From: Candidatus Acidulodesulfobacterium acidiphilum
Lineage (GTDB): Bacteria; SZUA-79; Acidulodesulfobacterales; Acidulodesulfobacteraceae
Length of the DNA: 64,000 nt
Assembly: GCA_008534395.1 (NCBI GenBank)
Contig: SHMQ01000013.1
Coordinates: forward strand, 1-64,000
Reading direction: 5' to 3'
Positions 54,385-55,962 of this stretch are shown piece after piece; within the stretch, counting starts at the first letter, position 1; each line of letters opens with the position of its first letter. The position numbers and the translations under genes were made by a program. Under the pieces are notes generated by a model. It did no database searches, was not told where the DNA came from, and worked only from the letters and a program-made list of their open reading frames with translations.

Positions 54385-55365
54385 TTATCCGATCAGTTTT
54401 GCGGCATAAAGCGAAAAATAGGTTATAATAATATCGGCGCCCGCCCTTTTCATAGAAGTAAGCGTTTCTAAAACCGCAAGTTCTTCGTCGACGTAACCCA
54501 TTTTAGCGGCGGCCTTTACCATGGAATATTCTCCCGATACGTTATAAGCGGCAAGAGGTCTTTTAAAAGTCTGTTTTATTTTGTAAATTATATCCAGATA
54601 GCTTAACGCCGGTTTTACCATAATGATATCCGCGCCTTCTTCTAAATCAAGCTCGGTTTCCAGTACCGCTTCGTCTGAATTCGCCGGATCCATTTGATAT
54701 GATTTTCTGTCGCCGAATTTAGGGAAACAGTCGGCTGCATCTCTAAAAGGCGAATAAAATGCGGAAGCATATTTTGAAGAATAAGACATTATAGGTATAT
54801 TTACAAATCCTTCATCGTCTAAAGATTCCCTTATTTTTCTTATCCTTCCGTCCATCATATCCGAAGGGGCTATAATATCCGAACCTGCTTTTGCGTAAGA
54901 AACGCTAATTTTTGCAAGATATTCCAACGTTTCGTCATTTTTAACGTAACCTTTTTCATCGACTATACCGCAATGGCCGTGCGAAGTATAATCGCACATG
55001 CATACGTCGTTAATAATTAAAATATCGGGATATCCGTCTTTTACGGCTTTCACGGTCTGCTGCATTATTCCGTTATCAGAATAAGCCTCGGACGCAAATT
55101 CGTCTTTATGCTCCGGAATACCGAAAAGAAGTATGCCGCCTATTTTTAAATCTTCGACTTTTTGAAGTTCTTTTAAAAGTTCGTCTATAGAATAGCGAAA
55201 CTGCCCGGGCATAGTGCCTATAGGTTCCTTAATTCCTTTTCCGTGCGAAACGAAATAAGGCATAATAAATTTTGACGGGTCCAATTTAGTCTCTTGAACT
55301 AATTTTAATAATTGAGGCGAATTGCGAAGCCTTCTAGGTCTTACGAAAGGATAGTTTAAATTCAT
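54385..55365 (-). CDS. hemB: Delta-aminolevulinic acid dehydratase (porphobilinogen synthase)
   Basis: Condenses two ALA to porphobilinogen in heme synthesis. The 326-aa TIM barrel has the two Schiff-base lysines (SYSSKYASAFYSPFRDA and MVKPALSYLD) and three cysteines in VCMCDYTSHGHCG, the zinc-dependent type. TATAAT lies about 35 bp upstream of the ATG, with no clear Shine-Dalgarno. Heme supply matches the heme-binding sensor two genes away, though no link is shown. Confidence 0.96.
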   Translation of the reverse strand: MNLNYPFVRPRRLRNSPQLLKLVQETKLDPSKFIMPYFVSHGKGIKEPIGTMPGQFRYSIDELLKELQKVEDLKIGGILLFGIPEHKDEFASEAYSDNGIMQQTVKAVKDGYPDILIINDVCMCDYTSHGHCGIVDEKGYVKNDETLEYLAKISVSYAKAGSDIIAPSDMMDGRIRKIRESLDDEGFVNIPIMSYSSKYASAFYSPFRDAADCFPKFGDRKSYQMDPANSDEAVLETELDLEEGADIIMVKPALSYLDIIYKIKQTFKRPLAAYNVSGEYSMVKAAAKMGYVDEELAVLETLTSMKRAGADIIITYFSLYAAKLIG

Positions 55366-55497: not shown

Positions 55498-55574
55498 GTA
55501 ACACAAATTTAACATAAATTTAACATAATTGTAACAAAAATTTCATAATTTTTTAACTAAATTTATGATATAAA
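55498..55574 (+). promoter_or_regulatory. Six tandem 11-bp repeats plus -10: Pho-box-like activator promoter
   Basis: Hexamers GTAACA (55498), TTAACA (55509), TTAACA (55520), GTAACA (55531), TTCATA (55542) and TTAACT (55553) recur at exactly 11 bp. The 5-bp spacers are also alike (CAAAT, TAAAT, TAATT, AAAAT, ATTTT). A -10 (TATAAA, 55569-55574) starts 10 bp after the last hexamer, and the repeats stand in place of a -35. Such geometry is that of PhoB/PhoP-family sites, where TTAACA-type half sites repeat every 11 bp. The regulator is inferred. Confidence 0.65.
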
Positions 55575-55632
55575 TGAAAAACGCGCTTAAATTTATAATA
55601 TTAATTAAAAAAATAAAAAGGAGGTACTTATT

Positions 55633-55962
55633 TTGGACAAAAGAAAACTTCACAAAAGGAAAAAGACTGTGCTTAAGAAGAAAAAAATGGGCTATCAGGA
55701 ATTCATCGATAAAATAAATTTAATTCATAAAGAAAGACGCGAAATGGAAAATTTTTTGAGAAGAGTGTGGGTGTTTAACGCCGAAGACGTCCTCGAATAT
55801 ATGGAAATAAAGAAAAAAAACGAAAAAATTCTTGAAGAACATATAAGACAAAAAGCATTGAGAGAATCAGGCGGAAATCCGGATAATGCCGAATTAAATA
55901 CAAGTTTAAATGCCGAATCCGAATTAACGTCAGGCCTTCATATAGATAAAATGACCGAATAG
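55633..55962 (+). CDS. Unrecognised 109-aa basic, coiled-coil-like protein
   Basis: I do not recognise a family. The reading frame starts at a TTG (55633-55635) behind AAGGAGGT with 9-nt spacing, a strong site. Residues 1-20 are almost half lysine or arginine (DKRKLHKRKKTVLKKKKMG). Residues 21-80 are charged and helical, with heptad-like spacing around ERREMENFLRRVWVF and YMEIKKKNEKILEEHI. The tail (81-109) is polar. No signal peptide or membrane segment. A nucleic-acid or polyphosphate-binding role would fit the basic arm and the Pho-like promoter, but that is speculation. It is monocistronic and convergent with the GGDEF/EAL gene. Confidence 0.75.
   Translation: MDKRKLHKRKKTVLKKKKMGYQEFIDKINLIHKERREMENFLRRVWVFNAEDVLEYMEIKKKNEKILEEHIRQKALRESGGNPDNAELNTSLNAESELTSGLHIDKMTE

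Follow-up and report, generated by a model that had tools for sequence, protein, structure and literature searches.

A putative PhoB operator-promoter of six half-sites upstream of a phylum-specific 109-aa gene in Candidatus Acidulodesulfobacterium acidiphilum

The array, its promoter and the gene downstream

The window, by which we mean the whole 64-kb stretch of DNA that was analysed, contains a plus-strand gene for a basic protein of 109 aa, preceded by a series of direct repeats and flanked by a divergent neighbour. The features of the locus are as follows.

54385..55365, minus strand: hemB-like gene, the divergent neighbour; an open reading frame named from its own sequence
55498..55558, plus strand: PhoB-type half-site array, equal to three tandem Pho boxes (GTAACA 55498, TTAACA 55509, TTAACA 55520, GTAACA 55531, TTCATA 55542, TTAACT 55553); read directly
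55566..55574, plus strand: putative extended -10, TG-A-TATAAA (TG 55566-55567, TATAAA 55569-55574), assigned by alignment with the regulon
55619..55624, plus strand: Shine-Dalgarno sequence AGGAGG, 8 bases ahead of the start codon; read directly
55633..55962, plus strand: gene for the 109-aa basic protein, with a Lys/Arg-rich N-terminus, a predicted two-helix hairpin (residues 21-44 and 50-80) and a disordered C-terminal tail

An earlier, sequence-only reading of this DNA had described six hexamers at 11-bp steps with no -35 in phase, and this description is exact: no in-phase -35 hexamer occurs upstream of the 109-aa gene, and the last half-sites stand in its place. The array is not a product of chance. 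It differs from a TTAACA consensus at five letters, and in a pitch scan the six-copy TTAACA score reaches 31/36 at 11 bp, the other pitches between 7 and 16 bp giving 21 or less. Among 30 random sequences of 10 kb each that match the local dinucleotide composition, the best score was 26, versus 31 for the array. No second run of three consecutive half-sites is found in the window, where 0.00-0.05 would be expected per 64 kb.

A -10 element does appear to follow the array, as the sequence-only reading had proposed; its placement at the next position, however, has shifted, with TATAAA as the hexamer and TATGAT (55564-55569) probably part of the extended -10. The distance from the end of the array to TATAAA is 10 bp, and the phosphate promoters examined share this geometry to within 1 bp, a TGN-hexamer lying at an almost equal distance from the last half-site; the -10 of the 109-aa gene sits one base farther from its array than theirs. 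TGATATAAA is invariant or nearly so over seven genus lineages. Translation of the 109-aa gene begins at a TTG codon (55633), which is replaced by ATG at the equal position in some close orthologues. Toward the hemB-like gene the best two-half-site score is 8.1 bits, versus 23.1 bits toward the 109-aa gene; this neighbour is outside the system and is context of this genus only.

Orthologues of the 109-aa protein were found in 24 of 30 genomes of Ca. Acidulodesulfobacteriota, with all six genera represented. A scan of one genome per species, covering about 85,000 species, gave 19 loci, the assignable ones all from the same phylum, to which the sole species-level name among them ('Ca. Acididesulfobacter diazotrophicus') also belongs. 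The family is apparently confined to Ca. Acidulodesulfobacteriota. Its conserved core reads QEFID...ERKE.EEL..RV..L..EDVL.EMEIK.KN, and identity among more distant members is 28-46%. The structure model has a mean pLDDT of 70.6, rising to about 91-93 in parts of the hairpin. The protein has no trusted match in Pfam or NCBIfam and its model no match in a PDB fold search, in agreement with the earlier statement that the target is not a known Pho-regulon member; weak matches to Pfam SLBP_RNA_bind and Sec7 fell below the cut-off and were discarded. A viral origin of the family was also considered and rejected, no relative being found in IMG/VR. In close relatives (L005, L006) an earlier stop shortens the C-terminal tail and leaves the hairpin core untouched, which makes the tail look dispensable.

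Pho-type arrays across the genome and the phylum

A three-half-site pattern gave 21 matches in the genome from which the window comes (G000; 2.09 Mb, 70 contigs) and none for the reversed control, and 11 genomes of other families gave 0-1 matches each. The regulon described here was assembled from such pattern searches together with individual stretches and is probably incomplete. The sequence-only reading had taken the repeats for a Pho-box-like promoter, to be refuted if nothing similar stood before phosphate genes of this genome; in G000 such repeats do stand there. Arrays lie ahead of a PstS gene followed by PstC (pstA-pstB-phoU being located at the start of another contig), a CHAD-ppx-ppx-ppk1 polyphosphate operon, an MFS protein (closest to the phosphate:H+ symporter family, under the curated cut-off), Phosphoesterase-family proteins and an operon with an ExbD protein. 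In a second genus (G016, where phosphate genes were assigned by likeness to the G000 proteins) arrays of four or five half-sites in most cases precede pstS-pstC-pstA, the symporter, a phosphoesterase, an ExbB/ExbD-like operon and ppx-ppk. Several arrays in G000 comprise five to seven half-sites; because such arrays recur, six half-sites are not unusual here, and the earlier remark that an array of six is long for such sites has to be dropped.

With a matrix trained on all remaining G000 arrays, the window array left out, this array scored 52.1 bits over its six half-sites, the second best in G000. A matrix built only from phosphate promoters (29 half-sites from seven of them) also detects it, at p = 0.005, the floor set by 200 shuffles.

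The repeats are retained upstream of the 109-aa orthologues in six genera, the conservation on which the sequence-only reading had staked its proposal. All 24 orthologue upstream regions are significant with the phosphate-only matrix, 23 at p 0.005 and the weakest (G017) at 0.015. Exactly six half-sites are present in each of the 12 orthologues of the window's genus; elsewhere, counted by eye, there are two (g2, g6), four (g4, g5) or five (g3). Near-E. coli Pho boxes occur in other genera (TGTCATAAAACTGTAAT), and the box of g2, g5 and g6 is TGTCATAAAAYTGTAAYA or very near to it and resembles the E. coli Pho box.

Some arrays in G000 precede genes of other kinds. The top-scoring one, with seven half-sites, lies ahead of a 465-aa protein (L060:3690-5198) that contains an HNH-like stretch (EIHHINQLQDDGRENVANL) and is without a Pfam match. 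A Phd-type antitoxin and a PIN-domain protein are encoded directly 3' of a strong Pho-type array at L063:1033-1841, which suggests a phosphate-controlled toxin-antitoxin pair. Contigs C14 (L102:2927) and C19 (L103:3700) share a stretch of about 124 identical bases that contains the same six-half-site array ahead of similar coiled-coil proteins and represents a duplicated promoter and gene start.

The type IV secretion operon and other DNA-transfer genes

In representatives of five of the six genera (g2 to g6), the 109-aa gene is divergent to an operon encoding a pilin, a TraL-like protein and TraC/VirB4, and the two share a common intergenic region. The orphan gene of the sequence-only reading has a genomic partner in these five genera. 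In the window's genus the secretion operon is away from the 109-aa gene, on another contig, and carries its own six-half-site array.

L059:759-4274 (contig C11 of G000) and L113-L136: chromosomal F-like type IV secretion operon

The G000 operon encodes a TrbI/VirB10-like protein, a TraG/TraD-type coupling domain, a MoxR-type ATPase and a transglycosylase. Its pilin was found in 18 of 19 good genomes and is 93-100% identical between genera over the 86 queried residues; across six genera it is thus far more conserved than the 109-aa protein is among its more distant members. Promoters of the secretion operon have a stereotyped core, TTCATAATNCYGAAACATTAAAATGATATAAAT. Long arrays also occur in G000 ahead of ssb, YifB/ComM and secretin-PilB operons. 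With the phosphate-only matrix p is 0.005 for every one of the arrays at ssb, YifB, the secretin, the pilin and the 109-aa gene; pilin promoters of other genera match it less well.

The best lead on the function of the 109-aa protein is the position of its gene beside the secretion operon. The protein could serve the chromosomal F-like type IV machine as an accessory, a tentative assignment that we hold at somewhat less than even. No ComEC protein (PF03772) turned up in the genome of the window in a search that detected 10 of 14 controls, so classical transformation is not supported, and a ComEC-type natural competence regulon was discarded as an explanation. Conjugation, competence and type IV systems are absent from the main text of the paper describing this order, and a literature search on Pho-controlled conjugation or competence found no report for this phylum among the papers listed.

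Probable regulation by PhoB and comparison with known systems

G000 holds two PF00486 regulators. One of these is encoded at L071:5114-5836; its DNA-binding domain finds its best PDB matches in E. coli PhoB (3t72/1qqi/1gxp, 84 bits; next 63), its recognition-helix segment RTVDVHIRRLR is identical to that of E. coli PhoB, and EPRTVDVHIRRLR is unchanged in 20/20 PhoB orthologues read. The sequence-only reading had proposed a PhoB/PhoP-family regulator; because the domain matches E. coli PhoB best, PhoB is retained and PhoP rejected. The full-length protein scores 248 bits versus a TIGR02154 cut-off of 296, and its orthology therefore rests on the DNA-binding domain together with the regulon. For PhoR, G000 yielded no kinase above the curated cut-off, the best one reaching 145 bits versus 334. 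In G018 (genus g4; 99% complete, 80 contigs; L025) Pho-type boxes are present and no PF00486 regulator was found, possibly through an assembly gap.

Taken together, the array is very probably a PhoB operator-promoter that turns on the 109-aa gene under phosphate limitation. In the proposed mechanism, phosphorylated PhoB would bind the six 11-bp half-sites head-to-tail when phosphate is limiting, substitute for the -35 element and bring RNA polymerase to the extended -10 at 55566-55574, so that the gene would be turned on along with the pst, polyphosphate, phosphate-symporter and phosphoesterase genes. The sequence evidence gives this account of the regulation good support; what we infer is that PhoB is phosphorylated and binds, that the gene is induced and where its -10 element lies.

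An improbable alternative is a division of labour: the long arrays, which precede the 109-aa gene and the DNA-transfer genes, would be read by the second OmpR-type regulator (gene on contig C1) or by another factor of equal 11-bp pitch, and PhoB would read only the four-half-site phosphate arrays. Such a division would accommodate the different recognition helix of the second PF00486 regulator (RTVDVLIGRIRKK), the clustering of long arrays at DNA-transfer genes and the stereotyped core TTCATAATNCYGAAACATTAAAATGATATAAAT at the secretion-operon promoters. However, in four genomes (G017, G019, G020 and G022) PhoB is the only PF00486 regulator found, yet the 109-aa gene and the pilin operon both keep their boxes, which argues against the second regulator and has led us largely to reject it. 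The 109-aa box of other genera is, moreover, almost an E. coli Pho box, and a matrix derived solely from phosphate promoters detects the ssb, YifB, secretin, pilin and 109-aa arrays at p 0.005 each. A factor from a family other than OmpR is conceivable.

It is also conceivable, and very unlikely, that PhoB binds the repeats while the gene is in practice not under phosphate control, the Pho box being kept for another role such as the shared promoter of an ancestral divergent locus. Confirmed Pho boxes do exist at genes without obvious phosphate regulation (PMC4415409), and the intergenic region is shared with the secretion operon in five genera; in the window's genus, however, the gene lies away from the operon and six half-sites are nevertheless present in 12 genomes. 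The 82% A+T of the array region could be taken to indicate a functionless AT-rich repeat, but dinucleotide-matched null models fall short of the array, and its conservation over genera together with recurrence across the regulon (21 matches versus 0 in the genome) refutes this reading, to which we give almost no credence.

Activation by PhoB under phosphate limitation is thus the reading we prefer. A Pho regulon can now be read for an experimentally uncharacterised phylum of acid-mine bacteria, and the phylum-specific 109-aa gene should serve there as a reporter of phosphate starvation. Should the boxes shared by the secretion, pilus and single-strand-binding operons prove functional, phosphate starvation would be tied to DNA transfer. 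Through PhoB it might then switch on a chromosomal DNA-transfer apparatus comprising the F-like type IV secretion system, secretin-PilB, ssb and YifB/ComM, with the 109-aa protein as a phylum-specific basic accessory, coupling phosphorus hunger to DNA export or import; we regard this wider scheme as speculative and rather unlikely.

The secretion system resembles F-type (TraC/VirB4) systems in that a VirB4/TraC ATPase is among the products of the operon adjoining the 109-aa gene in other genera, to which the G000 copy adds a TrbI/VirB10-like protein, a TraG/TraD-type coupling-protein domain and a transglycosylase. Unlike these systems, it is chromosomal, occurs in almost every good genome of the phylum and has Pho-type half-sites at its promoter, and its ATPase shares only some 22-28% identity with plasmid TraC. 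The E. coli Pho box consists of two 11-nt direct repeats of the CTGTCAT type (PMC4415409). The array described here shares with it the 11-bp pitch, the half-sites TGTCATA/TGTAACA and the replaced -35, and with the E. coli PhoB system an E. coli-like recognition helix and arrays at pst genes; it differs in that three boxes stand in a row, the half-sites have drifted to TTAACA, the -10 is of the extended type and the target gene is not known from any described Pho regulon. Cyanobacterial SphR Pho boxes contain at least three tandem repeats, CTTAACCT (PMC1906773). The present array likewise has three or more tandem repeats of 8 bp plus a 3-bp linker with TTAAC-type half-sites, although it belongs to another phylum and another regulator orthologue and extends to six half-sites.
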